Source: Granulicella sp. dw_53 (GTDB lineage: Bacteria > Acidobacteriota > Terriglobia > Terriglobales > Acidobacteriaceae). From it: a stretch of DNA of 64,000 nucleotides. Under the pieces are notes generated by a model that was not told the origin of the DNA, made no database searches, and saw only the letters and a program-made list of their open reading frames with translations. Positions 2,454 through 22,700 of this stretch are shown here, piece after piece. Where the stretch lies: NCBI RefSeq assembly GCF_018449545.1, contig NZ_JAAVUR010000004.1:310001-374000 (forward strand), read 5' to 3'. Within the stretch, counting starts at the first letter, position 1; each line of letters begins with the position of its first letter. The position numbers were made by a program, and so were the translations under genes.

Positions 2454-3336
2454 TTTCCAACCTCCGTAATGCCTCAAATGTCTGAATAACGTGTTGCTGA
2501 TAGGGCGTCTGCTCTTGCAGCGTGCGATGCAACTTCTGTCCCATACCGTGGGATCGAGTTGCACTCAAGCGTTGGCCTGGTACGGCCGTGCCTTCTTCAG
2601 CTCTATATCTCTGACCGCCACAGAGCGTCAGATAGACCCGTACCCTTGTTGCAGGGAGACGAAAGATGCTTCTCCAATGCGCAACACGGCGCTGTCTGAC
2701 GACTCAATAAGGTGTGACTGAAAGTACGAGCGCAATCAAAGCAGGTCGGCGGGTAATACAACCTAATTCAACCCAAACGTCCCATTCGTTCAACGAATAC
2801 ACGAATGCAACTGCTTACCTTCGACCATGAAGGGTGCTTCTATTGGCTCTTCGACAAGGAAGGATCGGTGCGGAACGTGAAAGAAAGATCTTCAACCATG
2901 AAGTCAGTCTTTCAGTTAGAAAAACATTAATATTACGTTTCCCAGATTCTCGGGTCTTTCAAGAGCTATGTCAAGCACTTTTTATCTGCGCACCGCAACA
3001 ACGCTCAATATTCGTAATGCCAAACCACTTACGAGCCGTAATGGACCGCAAGCTCGGGTTATCATCTCTCAATGCGTTATAGAGAATCGTCTCGCAATTT
3101 CACTTCAGCCTCACGCCGTTCCCCGTCTCGAGCAGACGCACTGGTTGCAGACCGCGAAATCTGCAATACTGTGGCCTCATACCTCCGGTTTCGCACTCAA
3201 GGTGAGAGATCTGTCAGACTCGGACTATGATGCATCGCCATCTCTTTGCAACGCAGATCAGCAATGTAGCTGATTCGGCCTCGAAGCCGAACGTTGAGTA
3301 TCTAAATTACTGCGTTACTTCTCCCCGGGGGAATCC
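2454..3336. other. 883-bp intergenic stretch, no supported gene
   Basis: The stretch between the divergent TonB receptor and the secreted Met/His-rich protein has only short frames with no recognisable protein signature and mixed, relatively AT-rich composition. It should contain the receptor promoter on the minus strand just right of 2465, but I could not pick a convincing -35/-10 pair. No tRNA, hairpin terminator or long repeat was seen. Confidence 0.6.
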
Positions 3337-4254
3337 ATGTCCTTGATCCAGTTGCCGAACGCCGTCCACTTACCTAAAACCCGCCAACACTTCCGCGCCA
3401 CCAAGATCACGCGAGCCGCACTCCTCGCCCTACTCGCCCTGTGCCCCTCACTGCACGCCGCGGATACGACACCTCTCACCGGAAAATACTCGCTCCAGGG
3501 TGGAAGTCCAAAGACCGAGGGACACCTCCGCGTCAGCTCCGCAGGCAAAGATCCCCTCACCCAGCATCTCGATCTCTGGATGACCACGCCGCCCTCCGCA
3601 ACCCCCATCCGCAACTACGCCGTCGAGATGACCAAGAAGCTCCACGTCGTCATCGTCAGCTCTGACTTCGCTCGCTTCATGCACATCCATCCCACGCTCA
3701 GCCCCACCGGCCACTTCGTCATCGACCAGCAGTTCCCCGCCCCCGGCCTCTACTACGTCTACGCCGACGGCGAACCCAACAACCTCGATCACCAGGTCTT
3801 CCGCTTTGAGGTCGCGGTCAGCAACAGCGGCAGCCAAAAGCCCATCACACTCTCGCCTACCGGCCGCGAGGTCAACATCGGACCCTACACTGTGGACCTC
3901 AGCCAGGTAAAACTCAACGCCGGAGGCATGGACATGATCGACGTCCATATCCTCAAAGGAGACAAGCCCGCCACGGACCTCCACCCCTACCTCGGAGCCT
4001 CCGCCCACGCCGTCTTCCTCAATGGCAAAGACCTCTCCTACGTCCACGTCCATCCCATGTCGATGGGCGGAGCAGATATGGCGATGAGCGGAATGAACAT
4101 GAAGGCCAGCGCGTATCTACCTGACAACGCCCCCTCCTCGCCCGACATGATGCTCCACATCTCCATCAAAGAGCCGGGCACCTATAAGATGTGGCTGCAG
4201 TTCCGCGGCGGCAGCCAGCTCTACGTAGCTCCGTTCGTCCTCACCGCACAATAA
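3337..4254 (+). CDS. secreted His/Met-rich protein, possible copper-binding
   Basis: A 305-residue protein with an N-terminal signal peptide (hydrophobic AALLALLALCPSLHAA, cleavage near residues 40-43). The middle repeats the pattern of metal-related secreted proteins: LHVVIVSSDFARFMHIHPTL, then a second module ending SYVHVHPMSMGG. A Met-rich stretch follows (ADMAMSGMNMK, about residues 248-258), which resembles Cu(I)-binding sequences of copper-handling proteins. Two HxHP motifs are visible, one per half, suggesting an internal duplication of a beta-sandwich domain. No copper ATPase or multicopper oxidase lies next to it, so the copper link is inference. GGGGGA at 3327-3332 lies just ahead of the chosen ATG; a later start would shorten the signal peptide's positive region. 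Confidence 0.7.
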   Translation: MSLIQLPNAVHLPKTRQHFRATKITRAALLALLALCPSLHAADTTPLTGKYSLQGGSPKTEGHLRVSSAGKDPLTQHLDLWMTTPPSATPIRNYAVEMTKKLHVVIVSSDFARFMHIHPTLSPTGHFVIDQQFPAPGLYYVYADGEPNNLDHQVFRFEVAVSNSGSQKPITLSPTGREVNIGPYTVDLSQVKLNAGGMDMIDVHILKGDKPATDLHPYLGASAHAVFLNGKDLSYVHVHPMSMGGADMAMSGMNMKASAYLPDNAPSSPDMMLHISIKEPGTYKMWLQFRGGSQLYVAPFVLTAQ

Positions 4255-4350
4255 CGTTCGCGTCCACATCTCCTCGGGACTAAAATTGATAGGTGCGCCT
4301 AAGCCGATGCTCGGCCCATCGCCCGGTCCAAAGCAGTTGACAGGAGATCC

Positions 4351-5070
4351 ATGAATATTACGTTTGCAGACAAAGTCGCCCTCATCACAGGCGGTACAGG
4401 CGGACTCGGTAAAGCAGTCGCTCTGGCATTTCTGAACGCGGGCGCCAAGGTCGCCGTAACCTATCGCAACCAGGAAGGCTTCTCCGTTCTCAAGATCGCT
4501 GCTGGAGCGAACGCTTCGTCCCTCACCGGATTTCAGACCGACATAACCGACGCAACTGCCACCCAGCAGCTCATCGGCAAAGTAGTAGCTCAACACGACA
4601 GGCTCGATGTCCTGGTAAACGCTGTCGGCGGCTACGTAGGTGGCGTAAACGTATTGGACCTGACGCCCGAAACCTTCGATCAGATGCTAACGTTGAACCT
4701 GCGCTCAGGGTTTACCTTGGTCCGCGCAGCCCTGCCGCAGATGCTCAAACAAAAACACGGAGCCATCGTGAATGTCTCCGCGAAGGCCGCATTCGACCAC
4801 GCCGCTGGGACCTCGGCGTACTCTGCATCGAAGGCCGCAGCGGTAGCCCTGATGGACTCACTCGCCGAGGAGCTGAAGGGCACCGGCGTTCGTGCCAACT
4901 CGATCCTTCCCAGAATCATCGACACGGCAACGAATCGAAAAGACATGCCGAACGCGACCTACTCCGACTGGCCCAGCCCCGAGGACGTCGCCCGGGTCAT
5001 CCTGTTACTTTGCCACGAAGACGCCAAAGTAATTCACGGCGCGGCAATACCGGTATATGGCGATAGATAG
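4351..5070 (+). CDS. SDR family oxidoreductase
   Basis: A 239-residue classical short-chain dehydrogenase/reductase. The Rossmann nucleotide-binding motif TGGTGGLG is at residues 13-20, the NAVGG motif at 90-94, and the YSASK active-site motif places Tyr157 and Lys161. The catalytic Ser normally lies 13 residues before Tyr; here that position (144) is Ala, with Ser143 next to it. Either the active site is shifted or activity is altered. Cofactor and substrate cannot be told. AGGAGA at 4341-4346 is the ribosome binding site. The gene is separated by about 96 bp from the upstream secreted protein and is probably transcribed on its own. Confidence 0.88.
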   Translation: MNITFADKVALITGGTGGLGKAVALAFLNAGAKVAVTYRNQEGFSVLKIAAGANASSLTGFQTDITDATATQQLIGKVVAQHDRLDVLVNAVGGYVGGVNVLDLTPETFDQMLTLNLRSGFTLVRAALPQMLKQKHGAIVNVSAKAAFDHAAGTSAYSASKAAAVALMDSLAEELKGTGVRANSILPRIIDTATNRKDMPNATYSDWPSPEDVARVILLLCHEDAKVIHGAAIPVYGDR

Positions 5071-5265
5071 ATCAAGGTATCCATAAACAGTAAGAGCCCA
5101 CCCACGAACACTCACGCAATAAAATCTAACTCTCTGACGCTTTGAATGCTCCTTCCCAGTTCAAGCCTCAATGAAAGTGATACCGACCGACCTAGACAGA
5201 GAAACGCTACCAGTTCAATCGAGTTGCATTTACTAAACCAGGCGATCGCGAAATAAGGACATCGG

Positions 5266-6204
5266 ATGAAGAACATCACAGAACGACCGTCCACGGTAGC
5301 TGTTGCATTTTGCTCTGACCCGAACATGGAGCTCGCTCTCCACGTAGCTGCATCCTCCGTCCTACGCCACCTCTCCCCGGGCATCACTCCAAAGTTCTAT
5401 CTCCTGCTCACCGATTTTTCCGCCGTCCAGGTGCGAAAATTGCACCTCACTCTTGACCGCCTCGACAAGCCCTACGAGCTCATCCTGCTTGAAACTCCAA
5501 ACGTGGAGATCTTCCATAAACTTCGCCCATTCCATGGCAGCTTTGCTGCTTACTATCGCCTCTTGCTGCCGGACATGATGCCCGAGAGGCGCTTCCTCTA
5601 TCTCGACCTGGACACCATCACCAACATCGATATCGCCCCACTTTTCTCAATCCACATGCAAGGCCATGCCTTGGGCTTTGTCGCCGACGGCTTTGTGAAA
5701 TACGCACTGGAGCATCAATTCTTCCAATCGCTGGGCATGAATCCCGACGGTCCATCTTTCAACTCCGGCATCATGCTGGTGGATACGGATCAGTGGAAGC
5801 AGGACCATTGCTTCCAAAAAATTCTTGCTTTCTGCAACGCCCACCCGGATGCTCTCGTCGCCGCGGATCAGACTGCATTGAATGCACTCTACTGGGACGA
5901 CTGCTTTCACCTGCATGGAGACTTCAACATCGAGCTCTCGACGGTGAGTCGTCAAAAAGAACTGAGAGCAGGCATATATCACTTCGTCGGTAGCCCCAAG
6001 CCATGGGATCTATTCGGCGGCCTGTTTCATCCCTATCACTCCCTGTGGAAAGAAGCGATGCGAAGAGTCGCCTTGAACGTATGGAAGAAGAACTCATACC
6101 TCAATCTAAGAAACTGGTGGCGACTGCCAAAAATATTAGGCGGCTACCGTCGAATTCTTAGACAGCGAAGCGAAATACGACGCACATTAGCCGCAGATAA
6201 ATAA
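5266..6204 (+). CDS. glycosyltransferase family 8 protein
   Basis: A 312-residue retaining glycosyltransferase of the GT8 (LgtC/GatL-like) type. The start VAVAFCSDPNMELALHVAAS is the typical nucleotide-sugar binding strand with clustered polar residues. The metal-binding DxD motif is DLD at 114-116 (LYLDLDTI). FNSGIMLVD, DQTALNALYW and the C-terminal HFVGSPKPWD match conserved GT8 blocks. No signal peptide or membrane segment, so it is cytoplasmic or peripheral. It probably transfers glucose or galactose to a lipopolysaccharide or other surface glycan; the acceptor is unknown and there is no surrounding glycan cluster. Confidence 0.9.
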   Translation: MKNITERPSTVAVAFCSDPNMELALHVAASSVLRHLSPGITPKFYLLLTDFSAVQVRKLHLTLDRLDKPYELILLETPNVEIFHKLRPFHGSFAAYYRLLLPDMMPERRFLYLDLDTITNIDIAPLFSIHMQGHALGFVADGFVKYALEHQFFQSLGMNPDGPSFNSGIMLVDTDQWKQDHCFQKILAFCNAHPDALVAADQTALNALYWDDCFHLHGDFNIELSTVSRQKELRAGIYHFVGSPKPWDLFGGLFHPYHSLWKEAMRRVALNVWKKNSYLNLRNWWRLPKILGGYRRILRQRSEIRRTLAADK

Positions 6205-12309: not shown

Positions 12310-12514
12310 GCCGGTGATTGAAACTGGGCATTTTCAGCGAGCACAAATCGCCGACTGACTAGCGTGGCTCGATGCGAATACAGCATTGCAGCGGGTAACG
12401 GTGACGGCGGAGTTGTTGAAAGAGGCGAACACATTCATTTCCGCGCTGAAGCGTAGCTAGCGGTATCACCCCACCGGCGATATCAACCAATCTATTGATT
12501 TTATTGGATTTACA

Positions 12515-13000: not shown

Positions 13001-15376
13001 CTAGTAGAGATATTGCTGGAACCCCGCGAACATCTCGCGGATCTCTGGTGGAGATCCGAGATCGAGAACGGCGTCGGAGATGGCATGGTATCGGAGAATG
13101 AGGAGGGAAGAGAGTTGGTCCTGGTCTAGTTCTTCAACGCCTTCAGTGATGTAGTGAGAGAGAACAAAATCCAGAAATGCCCGCTGTCTCTCCGGGAATG
13201 AAGCATGGATGGCGGGTCGAGCACGATCGGCACGTTCCTGACGGGTAATGCGGGGCAGTGCAAATGCGATGTACGCGAGCACATCATAGAGATCCGATTG
13301 CTCGGCGACGAGCAATCGTTGGATTTCGCCCAGCTGACTGCGGTCGAAGCCCTTGTCTTGAAGACTTCGGAGAAGCGCGCGACGCGTATCGGGCTTGCAC
13401 CATATGGTCCGTAACCCATCTTCATCTTTGAAGAACTCAGGTAACGTGCCGAAAAGGGATTCAAGGAACTGGTTCGCTGAAATGGGTCTCCCCTCCGCAC
13501 TCCAGAAGCTCGTCGCGGTCATGTGCTGAATCTCACGCGCTTTGCCGTCTGCGAGCCGAATGACCAACCATTCGCGACGTGGTGCCGGATCTTCTTCACC
13601 ATCTCGCCGGTCACCGTCTGGTTGCGGAATTGGCGGCTGAGGTGGTCTCGACTCGGGATCTGGTTCAGGATCAAGCGGCTCACCGTCCCACTCGGGATCG
13701 TTGAACAGATGATGGGCGCGAACAAAGTCGTAGATGGTGAAAAATTCCTTGCCGTCGAAAAGACGAGTACCACGCCCGATGATCTGCTTGAACTCGATCA
13801 TAGAGTTCACGGGGCGGAGCAGAACAATATTCCTGACGTTGCGGGCATCGACGCCGGTGGAGAGCTTTTGCGATGTCGTCAGGATCGTGGGAATGGTCTT
13901 TTCGTTGTCCTGGAACTCGCGTAGATACTGGTCGCCGAGGGCGCCATCGTTGGCTGTCACGCGACAGCAGTACATCGGGTCGGTGCTCGTCTTCTTCTGG
14001 TTGATGAGGTCACGGATCGCGGCGGCGTGGAGCTGCGTAGCGCAGAACACGATGGTCTTTTCCCGCTGGTCGATCCGCTCCATGAGCACAGAGACACGCT
14101 TCTCCTCGCGCTCCTTGATCTCAATGATGCGGTTGAAGTCGGACTCAGTGTAGCGACGGCCTTCCTCTACTTCGCCTTCAACGATGGTGTCATCCGGGGT
14201 GTACATATAGTCGTCGAGAGTGGTGGATACCTGAACGACTTTGAAGGGCGTAAGGAAGCCGTCGTTGATGCCTTCCTTCAGGGAGTAGATGTAGACCGGC
14301 TCTCCGAAGTAGGCGTAGGTGTCTACGTTGTCCCGGCGCTTCGGAGTGGCTGTGAGGCCAAGCTGCACTGCCGGGGCGAAGTAGTCGAGGATGCTGCGCC
14401 AGTTCGACTCGTCATTCGCGCCTCCGCGATGGCATTCGTCGATGATGATGAAGTCGAAGAAGTCGGGTGGATACTGGCCGAAGTAAGGCGCTGGCTGGCC
14501 ATCCGGGCCGGTGCCGGACATGAAGGTCTGAAAGATCGTAAAGAAGATGCTTGCGTTTGTAGGAACTTTGCCAGACTTGCGAATCGAGTCCGGTGCGATA
14601 CGGATGCGGGCATCGTCGGCAAACGAAGAGAATGAGTTGTAGGCCTGGTCGGCAAGGATGTTACGGTCAGCAAGGAAGAGAATGCGGGGCCGACGGGTAG
14701 GCTGGCGCGAGAGATTCCACTTCGCATGAAACAGCTTCCATGCAATTTGGAAGGCGATGGCGGTTTTGCCGGTCCCCGTGGCGAGAGTTAGCAGTATGCG
14801 CTGGCGTTCATCGGCGACTGCCTCAAGGACACGCTGGATGGCGGTGTCCTGATAGTAGCGAACGTCCCATGAGCCGGAGCGATCCTCGAAGGGAATCTGA
14901 GCGAAGCGTTCGCGCCATGCATTCGGCACGGCAAAGGTCGCGGCCCACAGTTCATCCGGCGTGGGGAAGTGGTCTACCAGACCCTCGGAAGTCGAGATGG
15001 CAACCGGGCCGTCGGGTTCATCTATGTTGGCTGGCTCTTGAACTGGCGTACTGCCCAAGTCCATGCGGTAGATCTTGTGGCCGTTCGTCGCGTAAGCGAA
15101 GCGGACTGCCATCTTCCCGGCATAGTGCTTGGCCTGGGCCACTCCCTCGGCTTCTGAGAGGTCTTCGCGCTTGGCCTCGATGACGGCGAGCTTGCGGTTT
15201 TGGTAAACGAGGATGTAGTCGGCTATATCGGGATCGGTGCGCCGTCCGGCTCCGATCAAACGTCCCTGGGTAATCTTGAACTCGCGCAGAATCCGTGAGC
15301 CAGCGATCACGCCCCAGCCGGCAGCGCGGAGTGCGGGATCGATCAACTCGGCTCGGGTTTCGGACTCGTTGCGCAT
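13001..15376 (-). CDS. hsdR: type I restriction enzyme R subunit (EcoEI-like HsdR)
   Basis: A 791-residue translocase/nuclease subunit of a type I restriction-modification complex, which cuts DNA unmodified at the recognition site. The N-terminal nuclease domain has Asp53 and the ExK motif at 67-69 (AVIEAKRED). The helicase core has Walker A TGTGK at 200-204 and the DECH box at 313-316, then GLTATPKR, VFCATQLHAA, and the motif VI-like QIIGRGTR. The C-terminal ~170 residues match the EcoEI R-subunit C-terminal region that contacts the methylase. Shorter than the ~1000-residue EcoKI/EcoR124 type, but normal for this subtype. It is the last gene of the leftward hsd operon, 7 bp after hsdS. Confidence 0.94.
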   Translation of the reverse strand: MRNESETRAELIDPALRAAGWGVIAGSRILREFKITQGRLIGAGRRTDPDIADYILVYQNRKLAVIEAKREDLSEAEGVAQAKHYAGKMAVRFAYATNGHKIYRMDLGSTPVQEPANIDEPDGPVAISTSEGLVDHFPTPDELWAATFAVPNAWRERFAQIPFEDRSGSWDVRYYQDTAIQRVLEAVADERQRILLTLATGTGKTAIAFQIAWKLFHAKWNLSRQPTRRPRILFLADRNILADQAYNSFSSFADDARIRIAPDSIRKSGKVPTNASIFFTIFQTFMSGTGPDGQPAPYFGQYPPDFFDFIIIDECHRGGANDESNWRSILDYFAPAVQLGLTATPKRRDNVDTYAYFGEPVYIYSLKEGINDGFLTPFKVVQVSTTLDDYMYTPDDTIVEGEVEEGRRYTESDFNRIIEIKEREEKRVSVLMERIDQREKTIVFCATQLHAAAIRDLINQKKTSTDPMYCCRVTANDGALGDQYLREFQDNEKTIPTILTTSQKLSTGVDARNVRNIVLLRPVNSMIEFKQIIGRGTRLFDGKEFFTIYDFVRAHHLFNDPEWDGEPLDPEPDPESRPPQPPIPQPDGDRRDGEEDPAPRREWLVIRLADGKAREIQHMTATSFWSAEGRPISANQFLESLFGTLPEFFKDEDGLRTIWCKPDTRRALLRSLQDKGFDRSQLGEIQRLLVAEQSDLYDVLAYIAFALPRITRQERADRARPAIHASFPERQRAFLDFVLSHYITEGVEELDQDQLSSLLILRYHAISDAVLDLGSPPEIREMFAGFQQYLY

Positions 15377-15383
15377 TTGTTGC

Positions 15384-16616
15384 CTAAAGAGTACCGGAGA
15401 AGGCCTGTTGGAGGATTGATTGTTTCAACGCTTCAAGCGATTCAAGCTTCTGTAAATGGACGGCCTCAAGGCGCTGAACTTCCGCTCGGAATTCGTCTAG
15501 CATCGAAACGACCTGTTGCTGTTGTTTAAGGGATGGAACAGGAACTGAAACGCTTTTAGCAGAGCCGATGTTGAAGTGCTTCTGAGCGGAACCGACGAGG
15601 TTACCTAAAACCAAGCGTTTGCCGTGTGCGGAATTGAAGAAATGAGCCATATAAAACGGGTCCAATGCAGGCCCGGGTCGAACGATAACTAGATCGCTGC
15701 AATTAGAAATCGGCAAGTCAGACGGGATAACAGCGGCTGTACCAGGATAGCCGGTTCGGACAATCGCAAGGTCACCAGGACGCAGTTGAGATTTCTTCAG
15801 TGTGGCGTTGAAAGCGGCGTCGATATACACAACATTCTCAAGGGATATGCGAAAGGGCCGGATGTTCTGCGATCTGAGGAACGGTACGCCGTCATCTCGA
15901 TATTCCTTAATCATCGAGCCAACGTGGCCTACTGTGATGTCGCTGCAGACATCATCAAGTCTCTGTTGCTTCCAACCATCGCCCCTCGCTGAAAAGACCT
16001 GTGCAACACGGCTCTCGAACAACGCAATAGAAACTGTCAGAACCCTATTAGCATTAGCCCTGGTTTTAGCAATTCCTTCGAATGTTTCATCGAGGATGGC
16101 GATAATGCGCTCCTGCTCCCTTTTGGATGGCAGAGGGATGGCAAGATTGCCGAGCTTGCTTGCGTTGAATCCGCCCTGAGCGCTTCCGACCGAGCCTTCA
16201 GCAATCACTCGCCAATACGTGGATGTCTGAAAATAATAGTTCACAAACTTGGGCAGGGCATTCTTTTCCAAGAGCCGGAGCCTAATAAGGTATGACGCAA
16301 ATACTGCTTCAGGCGGGTCTAACACAAGGAAGCTTTTTCCCGTTGTTGCTCCGGTCCGAGAGAAGACGATGTCTCCGCTTAGGAGCGTGTAACGAGAGAT
16401 TTTGTCCCTGTCTATGCTGCAATATGGAACCGTGCTCCAATTGACCCTGTCATCTTGAATGTCGGTGATCCTTAGGAAGCGCGGGCCGACAGGCTCCGTG
16501 GTGGCTGAATCGGTATAGCCATAAATGATCGAGCAAATCTCGCTGAGTCTGGCATTGCTCCAGCGATGATTAATAGCGACCCCTGAATGCTGCAGAGTCT
16601 CTTGAAGTTTAGGCAT
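15384..16616 (-). CDS. hsdS: type I restriction enzyme specificity subunit HsdS
   Basis: A 410-residue target-recognition subunit. It has two variable recognition domains, each followed by a helical spacer: the first ends AIPLPSKREQERIIAILDETFEGIAKTRANANRVL, the second VPVPSLKQQQQVVSMLDEFRAEVQRLEAVHLQKLESLEALKQSILQQAF. Phrases such as LRITDIQDD and LRSQNIRPF are typical of each half. The ATG at 16616 was chosen because it overlaps the end of the preceding gene by 8 bp (translational coupling); the frame runs further upstream but only as a shadow of that gene. The two recognition domains imply a bipartite asymmetric DNA target that cannot be predicted from sequence. Confidence 0.92.
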   Translation of the reverse strand: MPKLQETLQHSGVAINHRWSNARLSEICSIIYGYTDSATTEPVGPRFLRITDIQDDRVNWSTVPYCSIDRDKISRYTLLSGDIVFSRTGATTGKSFLVLDPPEAVFASYLIRLRLLEKNALPKFVNYYFQTSTYWRVIAEGSVGSAQGGFNASKLGNLAIPLPSKREQERIIAILDETFEGIAKTRANANRVLTVSIALFESRVAQVFSARGDGWKQQRLDDVCSDITVGHVGSMIKEYRDDGVPFLRSQNIRPFRISLENVVYIDAAFNATLKKSQLRPGDLAIVRTGYPGTAAVIPSDLPISNCSDLVIVRPGPALDPFYMAHFFNSAHGKRLVLGNLVGSAQKHFNIGSAKSVSVPVPSLKQQQQVVSMLDEFRAEVQRLEAVHLQKLESLEALKQSILQQAFSGTL

Positions 16617-17742
16617 CCTGCTCACCGATCCATTCCTCCAGCTTCTGCTGCAACTCTTCTTTGCTCGGCAGATAAAGCTGGTACTCGCGGGCGTGGATGT
16701 TCGCATCCTTCGGAAGAGTGATCTCGACCAAGGCGGTGTTCTTTTTCTTGCAGAGGACGATGCCGATGGTGTGGTTTTCCTCCTTCGTCCTAACAAAGCG
16801 GTCGAAGTAGTTGACGTACATCTGCATCTGGCCGAGGTTCTGGTGGGTCAGCTTACCGATCTTAAGATCGATAAGCACATAGCAGCGCAGGAGCCGGTTA
16901 TAGAGCACAAGGTCTACGAAGAAGTGCTCTTCGTCAAAGGTGAACCGCTTCTGCCGTGCTTCAAAGAGGAAGCCTTTGCCGAGCTCCAGCAGAAAATTCT
17001 CGATGTGGGTGACGATGGCCGATTCCAGCTTGGACTCGGAGTAGCTGGCCTTTTCCTGTAGGCCAAGAAACTCCAGAACGTAGGGCTCTTTGAGCAGGTC
17101 TTGCGGCTTTGCGACGTGCTGGCCCTTGCGTGCAAGCTCCCGGATCGAATCTTTGTCCCGGCTCAGAGCGAGGCGCTCGTAGAGACCGGCATTGAACTGG
17201 CGTTTCAACTCCCGCAGCGTCCATCCCTGCTGGGTAGCCTCAATCTCATAGAAGCTGCGCTCGGCCTCTTTCAGACCCATCAGGAAGACATAGTGCGACC
17301 AGCTCAGTGTAAAGGCGGCCTGCGGTTGAGTGCCGGGATCGAGCGATTGTCCAGACAGCGTCTGGACGATTGGGGATACTGGCAATTCCCCAGACAATGT
17401 CTGGGGAATCGCTCCCACTTTGAATTGTCCAGACGGTGTCTGGACAATTCGTGAAACCCGATCCGGGTAGGCAACGTAAAACTGGCGCATCGACGCAAGG
17501 TTAGTTCGTGAAAAGCCCGCGCCGAACTCCGCCGTCAGGCGGGCAGCAAGCTCGTTGAGAACTTCCTTGCCGTATTCGGCGCGATTAGCGCCTTGCTGCT
17601 CCTGTTCGAAGATTCGGCGCCCAATCTCATAGTTGGTATGAACCTGCAGCAGGTCAACGCCACGGGCGATGGTCTGACGGGCCGACAGGACCAGCGCACG
17701 GATATCCTCATACAGCGGAACTGGCTTTTTGAGTTTGCTCAT
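16609..17742 (-). CDS. DUF1016 family PDDEXK nuclease (YhcG-like) inside the hsd operon
   Basis: A 377-residue protein with the DUF1016 N-terminal helical domain (residues ~10-95: YEDIRALVLSARQTIARGVD... SRTNLASMRQFY) and a C-terminal PD-(D/E)xK nuclease fold. Asp277 in FFVDLVLYN and DLK at 292-294 are the likely catalytic residues. It overlaps hsdM by 4 bp (ATGA) and hsdS by 8 bp, so it is made with the restriction complex. DUF1016 genes are known companions of type I systems, but their job is unclear. Between the two domains (residues 98-137) lie three 13-residue repeats of the form IxQTxSGx, encoded by DNA palindromes. Confidence 0.9.
   Translation of the reverse strand: MSKLKKPVPLYEDIRALVLSARQTIARGVDLLQVHTNYEIGRRIFEQEQQGANRAEYGKEVLNELAARLTAEFGAGFSRTNLASMRQFYVAYPDRVSRIVQTPSGQFKVGAIPQTLSGELPVSPIVQTLSGQSLDPGTQPQAAFTLSWSHYVFLMGLKEAERSFYEIEATQQGWTLRELKRQFNAGLYERLALSRDKDSIRELARKGQHVAKPQDLLKEPYVLEFLGLQEKASYSESKLESAIVTHIENFLLELGKGFLFEARQKRFTFDEEHFFVDLVLYNRLLRCYVLIDLKIGKLTHQNLGQMQMYVNYFDRFVRTKEENHTIGIVLCKKKNTALVEITLPKDANIHAREYQLYLPSKEELQQKLEEWIGEQDA
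17346..17450. repeat. three in-frame palindromes at 39-bp intervals inside the DUF1016 gene
   Basis: The palindromes are at 17346-17370 (GTCCAGAC-AGC-GTCTGGAC core, one mismatch further out), 17385-17409 (11-bp perfect arms) and 17422-17450 (13-bp perfect arms). Each has a 3-nt centre and shares CCAGAC-NNN-GTCTGG. Centres at 17358, 17397 and 17436 are exactly 39 bp (13 codons) apart, and the minus strand encodes IVQTPSG, IPQTLSG and IVQTLSG. Outer arm bases co-vary (GTCC/GGAC versus CCCC/GGGG), so pairing is kept while sequence changes. Confidence 0.85.
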
Positions 17743-19190
17743 AGCAGACCTCGAATGCCCTGGAGGATTTCCGCGCTTTCGAGGTCGAGGGCGGCGATCT
17801 CGTCCAGTATCTCCTGCGGGGAGCGATGGACGATCTCATCATTGCCGTTCGGGTTCTTGACGGAGAGGTCGAAGGTCTTTTTGTCGATGCCGCTTACATC
17901 AATCGACCATGACTGCGCCGAGTCAGCAAACGTCGCCTGTTGCGAGATGAAGTCGGCCAGATCGGCATCGTTTAGCGGATTCGTTTTGCCGAGATTGCGG
18001 CCAGGGTTCAGTTGATAGAACCAAACCTTGCGCGTTGCGGAGCCTTTGGTGAAGAACAGCACAACGGTTTTCACACCCGCGCCCTGGAACGTGCCGCCGG
18101 GACAGTCGAGGATCGTGTGCAGGTCGCACGATTCTAGGAGGAGCTTGCGGAGGGAGACGCTCGCATTATCCGTGTTCGAGAGAAATGTGTTCTTAATGAC
18201 AATGCCAGCGCGTCCACCGGCGCGGAGCTTACGGATGAAGTGCTGAAGGAAGAGAAACGCCGTTTCAGATGTCTTGATGGGGAAGTTCTGCTGAACTTCG
18301 GTGCGCTCGCGACCGCCGAAGGGCGGATTCGCGAGGATGACATCGTGCCGATCCTTCTCCTGGATGTCGTTATTGTTCAGCTCCAGCGTGTTCGTATGGA
18401 TGATGTTGGGAGCCTCGATGCCGTGGAGGATCATGTTCATCAACCCGATTACGTAGGCGAGCGGCTTTTTCTCCTGGCCATAAAAGGTGCTGGTTTGCAG
18501 CTTTTTGCGATTGGCGACGTTCTTAGCTTCCTTGTTGAGCCGCTCGAAGGACTCACAAAGGAACCCGGCAGAACCGAGAGCCCCGTCGTAGATAGTCTCC
18601 CCGATCCGGGGCTGGACGACAGTAAGCATGGCGCGGATGAGCGGACGGGGCGTGTAGTACTCGCCACCGTTGCGTCCGGCGTTGCCCATGGAGCGAATCT
18701 TGGCCTCATAAAGGTCTGAGAGCTCGTGCTTTTCGGTTTGGGAGTTGAAACGCAGGGTATCGACCAGTTCGATGACCTCGCGCAGGTTATAGCCGGACTG
18801 GAACTTGTTCTTGAGTTCGCCGAAGATCTCCCCGGTCTTGTACTCGATGGTGTCGGGACGGTCGGCCCTCTGCTTAAAGCCCCTGAGGTAGGGGAAGAGC
18901 TTCAGATCGACGAAATCACGCAAGTCATCGCCAATGAGGGCGCGGTTGTGGTCCAGGGACCCGCTAGAGGTAAGCGGAGTGGCCCAAGTGTGCCACCGGT
19001 AGGCTTTTTCAAGCAGAAAGGAGTGCGACTGGCCATGCAATTCAGCGATCTGAGCGCGATCCTGCTCCAGGGCGTCCAGGTATTTCAGGAAGAGCAGCCA
19101 TGAGGTCTGCTCGATGTAATCCAATTCGGACGAAACACCAGCGTCTTTGCGTAAGATGTCATCAATCTTCTTAAATGCCTGTTCAAACAT
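17739..19190 (-). CDS. hsdM: type I restriction enzyme methylase subunit HsdM
   Basis: A 483-residue N6-adenine methyltransferase subunit. The N-terminal helical domain begins MFEQAFKKIDDILRKDAG. The AdoMet motif YDGALGSAGFL is near residue 201, a variant of the usual DPACGTGGF. The catalytic NPPF is at 288-291. ATG 19190 was chosen because the family normally begins with this MFEQAF/FKKID sequence; 22 further upstream codons are open but unlike the family. First gene of the hsdM-DUF1016-hsdS-hsdR operon and overlaps the next gene by ATGA. Methylates host DNA so that HsdR ignores it. Confidence 0.93.
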   Translation of the reverse strand: MFEQAFKKIDDILRKDAGVSSELDYIEQTSWLLFLKYLDALEQDRAQIAELHGQSHSFLLEKAYRWHTWATPLTSSGSLDHNRALIGDDLRDFVDLKLFPYLRGFKQRADRPDTIEYKTGEIFGELKNKFQSGYNLREVIELVDTLRFNSQTEKHELSDLYEAKIRSMGNAGRNGGEYYTPRPLIRAMLTVVQPRIGETIYDGALGSAGFLCESFERLNKEAKNVANRKKLQTSTFYGQEKKPLAYVIGLMNMILHGIEAPNIIHTNTLELNNNDIQEKDRHDVILANPPFGGRERTEVQQNFPIKTSETAFLFLQHFIRKLRAGGRAGIVIKNTFLSNTDNASVSLRKLLLESCDLHTILDCPGGTFQGAGVKTVVLFFTKGSATRKVWFYQLNPGRNLGKTNPLNDADLADFISQQATFADSAQSWSIDVSGIDKKTFDLSVKNPNGNDEIVHRSPQEILDEIAALDLESAEILQGIRGLL

Positions 19191-19586
19191 ACTCGTAGCG
19201 GGGCCTTTACTTATGTATCTACCTATAGGATAAGCTGAGTTCCTTCGCAGCCACAAAATCGTAGTGGGATAACGGAGTTTTGCCTATTTATAGAAAATAG
19301 GTGCCCCGGAAAGCCGACTAAACCCAAAGAACGGTCACTCGTATTTGGAAGCCCGAGCGTTGTTGTTTACTGTATAACCGTCCGTCGCTGTGCTAGTGCT
19401 CGTGCCTCTTCTAACGCTAGCCCTCTTTCTTCCCGGGCGGAGTAGCAGTGTCAGTATTCGCACTGAGGTAGCGATTTAAGGTTAATTGGCATCGATGCCA
19501 ATACATTCTCAAAGGCTAAGTTTAGCGGCAGACAGATGGTATCCGATATCCAACTACTAATGTCGCCCATCGGAAGTCAACTTCAA
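19191..19586. promoter_or_regulatory. hsd operon upstream region with two palindromes
   Basis: No gene in this 396-bp gap. Two symmetrical elements lie on the promoter side of hsdM: CCTATAGG at 19222-19229, and a 7-bp inverted repeat CCTATTT/AAATAGG at 19283-19301 (5-bp loop). They share the half-site CCTAT, so they may be a pair of operators or a hairpin. The rest, up to the end of the next gene at 19587, shows nothing recognisable. Confidence 0.35.
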
Positions 19587-22500
19587 TCATTTGGCTGCGA
19601 GCCTCGCTATTATCTGAGGGCTCTTCATGGAAATGCCAATCTTACTCGCCACAGTTAGGGCGGCGGATCTGTCAACATGAAACATTCGGAAATGGTTAGC
19701 CACCAAGTGGCGGAGTAAGATTCGTGCGAACCATTTTTTCTGAAAATCCTCATTTAGGGTCAAGATTTGACTCTTCGGAAAACTTAGACCGTGATCAAGC
19801 CCTATTGACAAGTCGATTAGATTGACAGCGGGGGTATTACCCAGGCCCTCTTTTACTTCATCGTAGGTCGGTTTAAGTTGGGATGATCCTACTGCAGCAG
19901 TAATATTTTTAAATAAGGAAACTACGATAATATCGAGGTATAGGACCACCACCCTATCCACTCGTTTATCTATAGCATCATCTTCGAACTCTCGTTCAGG
20001 AACGCTTCTTAGGCTTCCTCGAATCGCTCGCCGGAGGAACCCACGGAACTCGTCTTCGTTAGCCTCAATGCGGGAGATTATGGAACCAAGCACGCGCAAT
20101 CCCAAACGATAGACCTCTGATGTAATTTCTACTTTGAGCTTACCTGGCATCGAACCAGGAAAATTACGTACAATTTGGCCCAAGATATCAATGCTTTTTA
20201 TTGATCTAATAAATTGCGTATTTGGCCCTCTCTCGGGCTGTTCTTGGGATTCGTCTTCATGTTCCTCTCGGTCTCGTGCCCGGCGCTCTTCGTCTCGATT
20301 TTGTTCGGGCGTTGCATCAACAATTACTGCCTCTTTTGTGAGCATCTGTTGAACTGCCGGTGCAAGAAACGCGACGTGTGCTTCGGCGTCAAACATCGGA
20401 AAACCGGCAAATAAAGCTCGTGCGTCTGAGAGAAGCTTGGCGATTAGATCGGCGTCTCGTGTTAGATAAATGAGAAAGATGACTATGTTTGCATTTTCCT
20501 CATTTTCAATATTGTCCGCAATTTTGAGCATCGACGTTCTACTAGCGGCGGCATACTCCGGAGTTTTCATTTGGTCGGCAAGAAATCTGGCCATGAAGAA
20601 GTAATAAATATATTTATATCTGAAGGAATATTCGCCGTCTTGGTAGACCAATATGCTCGCCCGAAGTAACCGGTTCTTAATGTCAGATGCCTCAAATAGG
20701 GCTTTGTACTCTTGACCATATTGCACGAGAACAGCAGTGAATTCCGTAGCGCTCAAACCTGTTCTCGAATTTCTGTGAAGCTGCCAAGCGAATCTCCCTA
20801 AGACCGTGTAATAGACATCAACTTCGGTTGCTTGTTGACTCACTTCAGCAAGTGCCATGGTGATTAGCGAGTCGTAAAGATAACCGTAAGATCCATTGGC
20901 GTGATTTGACGTTTTTGTACTCTGATCTATCTGCAATAGAGATAGCAGAAAAAAGGGGAACGAGGGAAGAAGGCTACGACCTAATACGGTATTCAAAATA
21001 AGTTCGGCACGATGTACTTCATCATGAAGAGTCTCACTTGAAAGAGTTTTTTCCCTCCCGATCATCAGCCACTTCCTAATTAGCGACGCACGAAGAAGGT
21101 GACCAAACGGGGCGATGCGATAAGCCGCAAATTGCCCCTTATCAGCAAAAGAACCAGTGTAGATTTCCGCTTTATCTAACTTTAGGGTCGCTTCGGTTAG
21201 AAGGAGAATTCTACCGAAGCTACGACTCAGGTGCTCCAAAAGCTCCTTACGACCAACCTCATTCAGTTCGCTACTTTGCCATTTGTCAACTATTACCGCC
21301 CGGAGCGAACGATCTAGTTGGGAAAATTTCGCCAGCGACTTATCATCATATTGGGAACGAAATTCACGTTCCACTAACTTCCATAATTTCGCGATATTGA
21401 GATGAGAAGAATTTACTTCATCGCCTCCGAGAAATATGGGAACGATGCCATCTTTACCCTCGTAAAGTTGGAGAAATGCTCTCTTGGCTAGGGTCGTCTT
21501 CCCAGACCTTCCCTCACCGATGAGAATTGTAAGTTCCAATTCGGTAAGCAGCTCTTCAGGGGCTCTATCAATGTCATCATACGTTCCTAAGTTCTTATTG
21601 TGACTTCCAAAAACGTCTTGTAGTCGTGGAGGGACGTAGATATCTTCCAATCTTAGTTTTTTCTTGCGCGGATGCGTAAAACCAGTGCCCGGATCGTTAA
21701 GACTCTCTCGTGTTTGGTCCGCGAGTACGAATTGACGATGCAGTGCCCGTTGGCTATTTGCCTTTAGCCATACCTTGCGCTCACGTACAGAGTAATGATC
21801 AGTTAGCCAAATCAATTGAATAATTTCTTCTTCGCTCTTTTCAGTATCCGAAACGATGAGATTGAAACCACTCTCAGAGCCAAACTCGCCTTGAAGGGCG
21901 GCAGCTCTTACCTGTAGATATTTTTCTTCTTTCAGAGTTTCTTTGGCTTCGGCGTCCTCTTCGTGCTGATGCCCCAGTAGAACGAGATCAGATGTAGCAG
22001 CTAGAAAATGACGAGTTTCAACCGAATTGTTTGATTCCAGCCAGTTAGTTGGATGGTGCAGTACCGTGATGGAATAAACTTCATCTTCTGATGTGTTGCT
22101 CTCTCGGGTGAGGTGTATTGGTATGAAAAGTTTGCCCTGATCGCTTTCTGCTTTATTCATATGTCGTTGACATGCAATAGCGGTATTAAGGAGGGTCACT
22201 CTGACTGCTGTTTCGCCAAAAAAGAATTTGAACACCTGAACAGCACGATCGCTAAGTTTTCGCTGGGGCTGGTCGTCTGATAATGAGCTATTAAAAATTT
22301 CAAATTCACTTTGAACCGAGAGAAGATGCTCCAATGGTTTCTCTGTTCCGCTTAGTGATTTTATGTTTTGGCGAATAACGGGGAGGAGGATTTCCCTAGT
22401 AACGTTATCGGGATTTGTAAAATCGCAATCATGATTGCCTGGCACTGCAACCATTTTGAGTATGCAATTTGCTTTGCGTCGGTGTATTTCAGCCTTAAGT

Positions 22501-22700
22501 CCCGATGCGAATGCTGCAGCGAGATCGAATTCGGCCTTCTTACCTGAAAATGCAATGTCACCGCTGAACACTACTAACATGTGATCCCAATCTAGATCTG
22601 CCGCCGTGATTGCTTCCACGACTTTGGTTAGTCGATTCATGACGAATTTTTTTGTCGGCTGGAAATGTATGTCGCTGAGTTGCAATACCGCAAGACGCAT
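19587..22700 (-). CDS. metallophosphatase-P-loop NTPase fusion, candidate defence protein
   Basis: A 1037-residue protein. Residues 1-~300 are a calcineurin-like metallophosphatase with all metal motifs: D10-x-H12 (LSDIHF), G47-D48, G88-N89-H90-D91, H215-H216 and GHQH at 243-246. A P-loop NTPase follows: Walker A GEGRSGKTT (395-403), a Walker B-like RAVIVDKW around 467-474, and a sensor-like ILLLTEA. The C-terminal half is helical with no family I recognise, plus a charged low-complexity linker (RRARDREEHEDESQEQPERG). This layout (effector, NTPase, long sensor) resembles STAND/NACHT-type antiphage proteins. TAAGGAG lies ahead of the ATG. Lower GC than the flanks. Defence function is inferred from architecture and location beside a type I system. 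Confidence 0.75.
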   Translation of the reverse strand: MRLAVLQLSDIHFQPTKKFVMNRLTKVVEAITAADLDWDHMLVVFSGDIAFSGKKAEFDLAAAFASGLKAEIHRRKANCILKMVAVPGNHDCDFTNPDNVTREILLPVIRQNIKSLSGTEKPLEHLLSVQSEFEIFNSSLSDDQPQRKLSDRAVQVFKFFFGETAVRVTLLNTAIACQRHMNKAESDQGKLFIPIHLTRESNTSEDEVYSITVLHHPTNWLESNNSVETRHFLAATSDLVLLGHQHEEDAEAKETLKEEKYLQVRAAALQGEFGSESGFNLIVSDTEKSEEEIIQLIWLTDHYSVRERKVWLKANSQRALHRQFVLADQTRESLNDPGTGFTHPRKKKLRLEDIYVPPRLQDVFGSHNKNLGTYDDIDRAPEELLTELELTILIGEGRSGKTTLAKRAFLQLYEGKDGIVPIFLGGDEVNSSHLNIAKLWKLVEREFRSQYDDKSLAKFSQLDRSLRAVIVDKWQSSELNEVGRKELLEHLSRSFGRILLLTEATLKLDKAEIYTGSFADKGQFAAYRIAPFGHLLRASLIRKWLMIGREKTLSSETLHDEVHRAELILNTVLGRSLLPSFPFFLLSLLQIDQSTKTSNHANGSYGYLYDSLITMALAEVSQQATEVDVYYTVLGRFAWQLHRNSRTGLSATEFTAVLVQYGQEYKALFEASDIKNRLLRASILVYQDGEYSFRYKYIYYFFMARFLADQMKTPEYAAASRTSMLKIADNIENEENANIVIFLIYLTRDADLIAKLLSDARALFAGFPMFDAEAHVAFLAPAVQQMLTKEAVIVDATPEQNRDEERRARDREEHEDESQEQPERGPNTQFIRSIKSIDILGQIVRNFPGSMPGKLKVEITSEVYRLGLRVLGSIISRIEANEDEFRGFLRRAIRGSLRSVPEREFEDDAIDKRVDRVVVLYLDIIVVSLFKNITAAVGSSQLKPTYDEVKEGLGNTPAVNLIDLSIGLDHGLSFPKSQILTLNEDFQKKWFARILLRHLVANHFRMFHVDRSAALTVASKIGISMKSPQIIARLAAK

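Follow-up and report, generated by a model that had tools for sequence, protein, structure and literature searches.

Palindromes within DUF1016/YhcG nuclease genes as probable DNA recognition sites for the proteins of the same genes

Genes of the DUF1016/YhcG family carry palindromes within their own coding sequences and, judging from the way in which the two vary together, these palindromes are very probably double-stranded DNA recognition sites for the protein of the same gene. A large and little-studied nuclease family thus acquires a definite molecular target, one that can be seen in E. coli K-12, and the family offers a clear case of coding sequence that is kept as a DNA site across phyla by way of a disordered protein loop. 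Because protein and site share one gene, genome sequences directly supply many natural pairs of protein and site, and these yield a residue-to-base recognition code. A study of 2005 predicted a C-terminal PD-(D/E)XK nuclease for the YhcG family and found no match for the N-terminal ~200 residues; its passages on the family mention no site, palindrome or specificity (PMC1189080). The parts of the literature on DUF1016, yhcG or PDC-S02 that were available to us yielded no description of in-gene palindromes.

The window analyzed here is a stretch of 64,000 nucleotides from Granulicella sp. dw_53 (contig NZ_JAAVUR010000004.1, positions 310,001 to 374,000), in which a DUF1016 gene is embedded in a type I restriction operon of the order hsdM, DUF1016, hsdS, hsdR (Table 1). 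The overlap between hsdS and the DUF1016 gene may be only apparent, the true start of hsdS being uncertain. The protein exceeds the Pfam cut-offs for both PF17761 and PF06250 (125.1 and 176.8 bits, compared to 32.8 and 32.5), and PADLOC places it in the candidate defence family PDC-S02. Three palindromes spaced at 39 bp had been noted in the preliminary description of this DNA, and their centres and period proved to be exact. On the coding strand, the first palindrome reads AATTGTCCAGACACCGTCTGGACAATT and the second GATTCCCCAGACATTGTCTGGGGAATT, both perfect over positions +-2 to +-12 from the centre; the third has one broken pair. The repeats do not lie between two DUF1016 domains, as had been thought, but inside the N-terminal DUF1016_N domain, whose Pfam match covers residues 13-190 (onto a 137-position profile) and includes the palindrome-coded loop, residues 100-140, for which the structural model gives a pLDDT below 50. 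Between positions 16500 and 18000 of the window, one intrinsic terminator was found, compared to 1.4 in shuffled sequences. Upstream of the restriction operon (19587-22700, minus strand) lies a gene for a large protein with metallophosphatase and STAND-NTPase matches, a PADLOC candidate of class PDC-S60.

Table 1. Features of the DUF1016 locus in the Granulicella window
Feature	Position	Strand	Remark
DUF1016/YhcG nuclease gene, 377 aa	16609..17742	-	both Pfam domains
Palindrome 1 in gene order, centre 17436	17423..17449	-	11/11 pairs, encodes RIVQTPSGQF
Palindrome 2, centre 17397	17384..17410	-	11/11 pairs, encodes IPQTLSGEL
Palindrome 3, centre 17358	17345..17371	-	10/11 pairs, encodes IVQTLSGQS
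Segment for predicted helix 79-91	17470..17508	-	residues 80, 83, 84 covary with bases -7, -8, -5
Segment for predicted helix 148-154	17281..17301	-	residues 149, 152, 153 covary with bases -2 to -5
Segment for predicted helix 176-184	17191..17217	-	residues 176, 177 covary with bases -3, -2
YhcG_C PD-(D/E)XK nuclease domain, residues 214-368	16639..17103	-	Pfam
Stretch with presumed catalytic D277 and D292-x-K294	16861..16914	-	conservation
hsdM, N6 DNA methylase, upstream neighbour	17739..19256	-	
hsdS, specificity subunit, downstream neighbour	15384..16796	-	start listed is TTG
hsdR-like restriction subunit	13001..15376	-	

Homologues were collected from relatives (38 of 150 genomes, at E<=1e-20), from a genome collection (80 loci representing many phyla and methanogens) and from further genomes, and the removal of duplicate, short and weak entries from 351 HMM hits left 292 distinct genes; the sampling centres on Acidobacteriota, Pseudomonadota and Bacteroidota plus the 80 collection loci and is uneven over life. 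At least 10 of 11 pairs are formed, in the same loop and the same reading frame, in 183 of the 292 genes (62.7%, compared to 0.54% after synonymous resampling) and at least 8 in 265 (14.4% after resampling), counts that are slightly inflated because the loci of 22 genes had been retrieved with the palindrome pattern; all 11 pairs are formed in 103 genes (0.03% after resampling). In the set of the first 160 distinct genes, which contains none of those fetched by pattern, the loop that separates the FYxxY motif from the SWSHY motif harbours a strong palindrome in 123 cases, with 140 palindromes in 16,776 bp of loop as against 25 in the 159,261 bp that make up the remainder of the same ORFs. Five of these 140 loop palindromes are even; among the odd ones, the centre falls on codon position 1 in 134 and in another phase in one. 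The number of sites varies from 0 to 4 per gene, with clustering where there are several, and in genes lacking the insertion the site directly precedes the SWSHY motif. An in-phase loop site of at least 8 pairs is missing from 27 of the 292 genes; in nine of these a site does occur between -300 and +150, though in a different phase or place, and in the remaining 18 none was found. These sequences show that many bacterial phyla, and methanogens too, have retained a 27-bp site in a constant place and reading frame.

The site begins and ends with A/T, mostly as ATT...AAT, and a variable arm connects these ends to an R-n-Y centre whose two sides vary independently. Positions -2 to -9 are variable yet complementary, as illustrated by the pair at +-6, which is C-G in 101, G-C in 48, T-A in 18 and A-T in 5 of 181 distinct 27-mers that were preselected for at least 8 of 11 pairs. 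In an unselected test, 153 short-linker genes were examined with the centre fixed at six codons ahead of the Trp, and the resulting 128 distinct 27-mers had a mean paired fraction of 0.79, compared to 0.44 after column shuffling and 0.18-0.31 when the centre was slid. Compensatory changes in both arms numbered 404 in this set versus 132 +- 9 in column shuffles, which strongly supports the earlier suspicion that the nucleic acid is under selection in addition to the peptide.

The possibility that the QTxSG repeat is selected as protein, with the palindrome as a by-product of codon use, has an almost negligible probability. A loose common peptide pattern does exist, and it persists in some homologues whose palindrome is weak, but the best palindrome score averaged 10.0 in the observed genes compared to 4.4 when synonymous codons were resampled (200 times per gene, 159 genes). 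Together with the resampling of the 292 genes, in which each gene's own codons almost never gave the palindromes, this refutes peptide selection as a full explanation. The loop is, moreover, disordered in the model, and the peptides diverge while the arms remain complementary. Peptides follow the DNA, as in ISETLSRKS versus KSETLSRIS, where the ends are exchanged and the inner arm is the same. Homologues with the peptide repeats and no palindromic coding DNA had been named as a finding that would speak against selection on the nucleic acid; the opposite was mostly encountered, and a QTxS-like peptide with a weak or absent palindrome does occur in four loci (L056, L059, L073 and L102). Very improbable, too, is the suggestion that the palindromes form a ladder of stem-loops in the RNA of the hsd transcript. 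The coding strand folds far more stably than shuffled sequences (z -10.8), but any palindrome would give such a fold. An mRNA hairpin is unlikely because the arms stay complementary without an excess of G-U: mismatches of the G-U/U-G and A-C/C-A kinds number 32 and 51 in the preselected sites and 40 and 41 in the unselected ones. The independent variation of the two sides of the R-n-Y centre, the covariation of the arms with helices resembling those of DNA-binding proteins and the absence of any Rfam match above the gathering score between positions 12500 and 23000 of the window also argue against RNA. Sites are found, in addition, after stop codons, just 5' of an open frame and between convergent genes.

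Protein and site appear to change together during evolution, as indicated by a comparison of arm bases with residues outside the palindrome-coded loop (numbered as in the window protein) in 236 genes with at least 9 of 11 pairs, one best site being taken from each, for an effective number of 64. The strongest residue/base pairs were 80/-7, 176/-3, 149/-3, 177/-2, 149/-2, 162/-2, 83/-8, 152/-4 and 84/-5. At base -7, Arg80 goes with G in 84 of 86 genes, and Ser80 is looser (C in 26, T in 18). At -8, Glu83 goes with C (45/46), Trp83, Met83 and Phe83 go with T (23/23, 12/12 and 9/9), and Lys83 is looser (G in 34, T in 14). Tyr84, Asn84 and Gln84 all go with A at -5 (78/78, 37/38 and 16/16); Arg152 goes with C at -4, which is G on the other strand (40/43); Leu176 and Lys176 go with A and C, respectively, at -3 (57/59 and 19/19); and Arg177 goes with C at -2 in all of 150 genes. 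These tables match familiar base-reading chemistry.

Shared ancestry was taken into account by counting co-changes on the same branch of a tree that was built without the contact columns. These exceeded expectation for 80/-7 (37 versus 11.8), 83/-8 (31 versus 8.4), 84/-5 (16 versus 4.2), 149/-3 (18 versus 3.2), 176/-3 (17 versus 3.3) and 177/-2 (7 versus 0.9); the pair 152/-4 was weaker (p=0.002), and of six deliberately mismatched control pairs four gave p>0.07 and two p=0.03-0.04. When all 277 columns were ranked for each base, the best was R177 for -2, S149 for -3 (followed by L176), F153 for -4, S84 for both -5 and -6, T80 for -7, and A83 for both -8 and -9; columns 153, 151 and 149 rank first for base -4, and the uncorrected covariation test picks up further columns as well, among them 162, 147 and 86. 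Prediction of a base from a single residue, with training restricted to genes less than 50% identical, was correct in 127 of 182 cases at -7 (majority base 0.18), 126 of 171 at -8 (0.54), 171 of 184 at -5 (0.76), 141 of 175 at -4 (0.25) and 154 of 181 at -3 (0.22), and brought no gain over the majority base at -2 (127 of 168, or 0.76 versus 0.77) under the same restriction. In 49 multi-site genes that were left out of training, sites 1 and 2 scored +4.0 and +3.4 bits, respectively, versus -4.3 for random pairing, the training genes for this score being unfiltered for relatedness, unlike those of the single-residue test. Of the three guesses offered in the preliminary description, this covariation favours the first, that the palindromes are bound by the nuclease itself.

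Sequence searches gave no solved homologue at a credible E-value (best 0.47). A model of the N-terminal domain of a short-linker homologue is confident (pLDDT 87, pTM 0.79), and the covarying residues map to three of its helices: 71-84 and 130-138, each at its start, and 102-108. Foldseek returned no match to the N-domain model at E<=0.001, with Spo0J first at E 0.8, and the 12 best rows from VIA-align were all ParB/Noc DNA-binding domains, at Z 7.5-6.3 with the next row at 5.0; the alignment to Noc 7nfu has a Z of 7.5, a value that can reflect a common arrangement, with an rmsd of 3.2 over 95 aligned residues. In ParB, contacts with the palindromic parS are made by alpha4, the recognition helix, together with alpha6 and alpha8, and a few residues determine the specificity of ParB and Noc (PMC7383237). 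As with ParB/Noc at parS and NBS (PMC7383237), a DUF1016 homodimer might read its palindrome through three helices, each subunit reading one arm via a ParB/Noc-like DNA-binding domain, with helix 79-91 reading bases -5 to -9 and helices 148-154 and 176-184 reading -2 to -4; these helices might correspond one to one to alpha4, alpha6 and alpha8. Since the palindromes would encode a tolerant loop, the coding sequence could double as a binding site. DUF1016 proteins differ from ParB/Noc in carrying a PD-(D/E)XK nuclease domain and in having their sites in and around their own genes; no ParB CTPase domain was found in the window protein, whose sole Pfam matches at E<=0.001 are PF06250 and PF17761. 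One parS of Bacillus subtilis does lie within spo0J. The nuclease domain has Foldseek matches at E<=0.001 to NucS and EndoMS, and D277, [DE]292 and K294 are each present in 268 of 269 genes. With this residue pattern, D ... (D/E)xK, we take the DUF1016 proteins to be predicted PD-(D/E)XK nucleases, and from general knowledge of that superfamily D277 and D292-x-K294 are presumably catalytic.

Genome searches for the site were made with a consensus pattern limited to CAGAC/GAGAC arms, which matched 27 of 793 genomes (23 of 395 and 4 of 398, compared to 3 and 2 for a reversed control pattern). In each of the 27, a DUF1016 gene contains a site, always in phase but for one case at a contig end (L217), and only two of these genomes have further sites outside, both beside the DUF1016 gene: one is an intergenic site that adjoins the gene (L222), and the other is an array of 36 copies of a 78-bp unit (L226/L389; genome G560, contig C102, plus strand ~2660-5490), each with a DUF1016-type palindrome. 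This array forms one long open frame that lies 59 bp upstream of the DUF1016 open frame, and most of its palindromes have one or two broken pairs; neighbouring genes were judged by eye to be DNA methylase-like and helicase-like. Among 36 stretches of viral contigs with a site, 5 have it in a DUF1016 gene and 31 elsewhere, and 13 of the latter sites are fully paired. Two viral ORFs without a DUF1016 match contain in-phase palindromes (L256:6866-6890, encoding IQQTLSGKS, and L268:7563-7587, encoding IGQTVSGQS). A protein search of the viral contigs gave no relative, and one of phages gave 13 records. A Cetobacterium strain has near-identical intergenic palindromes outside DUF1016 genes on plasmids p5 (L400:3016) and p2 (L401:3015), and the arms of the DUF1016 gene on its plasmid p7 differ from these.

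The perfect sites outside DUF1016 genes, namely the 13 on viral contigs, that in the gltD-nanQ gap of E. coli strains lacking the gene and those on the two plasmids, weigh against recognition by the protein of the same gene. In the Rickettsia palindromic elements, too, palindromic DNA lies within coding sequence and leaves the frame unbroken (PMC4316617). A mobile in-phase palindrome of this kind would enter a tolerant loop and would need no interaction with the protein, and the variable copy number, the two viral ORFs outside the family and the perfect viral-contig sites all agree with it. We nevertheless consider it very unlikely: it leaves the residue-base covariation unexplained, and in the window genome the 15-bp core is perfect only once outside the gene and there lacks the flanks. 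Rickettsia elements, moreover, are selfish, measure 100-150 nt and occur also in intergenic DNA and RNAs, whereas the DUF1016 sites measure ~27 bp and are almost confined to one gene family in cellular genomes; the one consensus pattern revealed no cellular genome with copies scattered over many unrelated genes. Within the limits of the CAGAC/GAGAC pattern, the earlier idea of a mobile repeat is therefore disfavoured where scattered copies in cellular genomes are concerned, and it keeps some ground in the viral-contig palindromes.

In E. coli K-12, yhcG has three in-phase sites and a fourth that is centred 28 bp past the stop codon, and a further site follows gltD; the yhc island has a palindrome at each end (L388, 632-658 and 8970-8996). 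A query extending into nanQ matches in some part 5029 of 5426 genomes, and at least 80% of it is matched in 3630. Of the alleles read, those of strains 222, HB42 and ST648 differ from that of K-12 by a cassette that replaces Lys/Arg at residues 80/83 by Arg/Trp and changes the arm of site 1 from CgCCAGAC to GTGCAGAC (in K-12 itself the left arm of site 1 is CaCC). This swap agrees with the residue-base tables at -7 and -8; Trp83 also predicts C at -9 (24/24), yet site 1 of strain 222 has G. Site 1 and the one that follows gltD are the only K-12 sites to fit the outer-base rules for the K-12 protein; the others (sites 2 and 3 and the post-stop site) have G at -7, whereas K80 goes with C. Both arms of such secondary sites change between strains, and not all of them fit the resident protein. 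No site follows gltD in strains 222, HB42 and CFSAN061770. Five strains without an intact yhcG island were examined. Three of them (L398, L407 and L409) have one perfect site in the gltD-nanQ gap, a 27-mer identical to site 1 of the K-12-type alleles; a site can therefore exist without the gene and may mark a point of insertion or excision. The other two are altered strains, one with no site at the junction (L406) and one with an IS1 between two sites (L408). No intrinsic terminator was found at the gltD-nanQ palindrome (0.4 in shuffles). Broken copies of yhcG occur in L391, L394, L395, L396 and L408, with the surviving palindromes mostly intact; one form is 80 bp shorter, frame-shifted and without sites 2 and 3, and others show truncation or replacement by IS1 or the loss of the C-terminal part beside a transposase gene.

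The high probability stated at the outset concerns self-recognition and does not extend to the use of the sites. The likeliest use, which we hold tentatively and at somewhat less than an even chance, would be a negative, promoter-independent autoregulation of a potentially harmful nuclease, in which the bound protein would block RNA polymerase on its own gene. There is a precedent in C.Kpn2I, which binds inside its own gene and acts as an elongation roadblock, a promoter-independent autoregulation that its authors regard as suited to horizontal transfer (PMC6237814). Both are proteins of restriction-modification loci, and the DUF1016 protein would, like C.Kpn2I (PMC6237814), have a recognition site inside its own coding sequence. 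C.Kpn2I, however, is a small XRE-related regulator and DUF1016 a nuclease of 377 residues; the DUF1016 palindromes are long, in phase and change with the protein over phyla; and the C.Kpn2I roadblock was demonstrated, whereas binding and repression by the DUF1016 protein are proposed. C.Kpn2I-type logic would suit a nuclease gene that is found in many contexts: autoregulation that is promoter-independent and exerted on the gene itself would form a brake that therefore travels with the gene between operons. The conserved nuclease motif, the site in island-free E. coli and the synthetic lethality of a yhcG deletion with replication mutants (PMC2672614) leave room for other roles.

It is possible but doubtful that the sites are targets instead of operators, at which the protein cuts or recombines in a manner similar to homing, so that an unoccupied locus or an incoming gene copy would be cut while the cell's own copies are protected or the enzyme is held inactive. 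The near-invariant nuclease residues, the K-12 island with its site at each end, the match between the gltD-nanQ site of the three island-free strains and site 1, and the frequent changes of specificity, as in restriction or immunity systems, would agree with cleavage. The same 27-mer, however, lies inside the gene, where cutting would be suicidal unless controlled; insertion destroys a classical homing site; and the E. coli strains do not conform, given the junction that has no site, the IS1 between two sites and the three strains without a site after gltD. Distinctly unlikely is a nucleation process, in which a ParB-like domain would load on its own gene and a local complex would mark or silence the locus, with repression as a by-product. 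The modelled resemblance of the N-domain to ParB/Noc, the 1-4 clustered sites per gene and the 36-copy array beside one gene might all be expected of it. A deletion of yhcG is reported to be synthetic lethal with dnaB, dnaN and parE hypomorphs (PMC2672614), as might befit nucleation, but the lack of a ParB CTPase domain in the Pfam scan and of a significant Foldseek match for the N-domain tells against it. In a broader synthesis, to which we likewise assign a low probability, DUF1016/YhcG proteins would be a class of site-specific nucleases directed, within the cell, mainly at their own genes and the surrounding DNA, with specificity and target drifting as one unit and with sites marking where gene islands come and go; the system would be a self-addressed switch, providing self-repression at rest and cutting or recombination at its own address upon activation or transfer to an empty locus.

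Within a locus, the arms of the resident gene recur more often than foreign arms (17 rows versus 1.9 expected, all with a 3-base gap), and these recurrences represent 13 distinct places, of which 7 are in the same loop and 6 outside (L026, L027, L031, L034, L188 and L200). We do not claim that the arms of paralogues are orthogonal, since arms within a genome differ no more than those between genomes at equal protein identity (4.77 versus 4.72 at 30-39% identity, from 35 and 2102 pairs; 4.47 versus 4.15 at 40-49%, from 15 and 759 pairs). Extra palindromes were also seen inside DUF1016 genes, at ~23 codons before the F of FYxxY (L026, L033, L115 and L154; also L228) and at ~55 codons after the W (L031, L034 and L188), and in several cases they have the same arms as the loop site.
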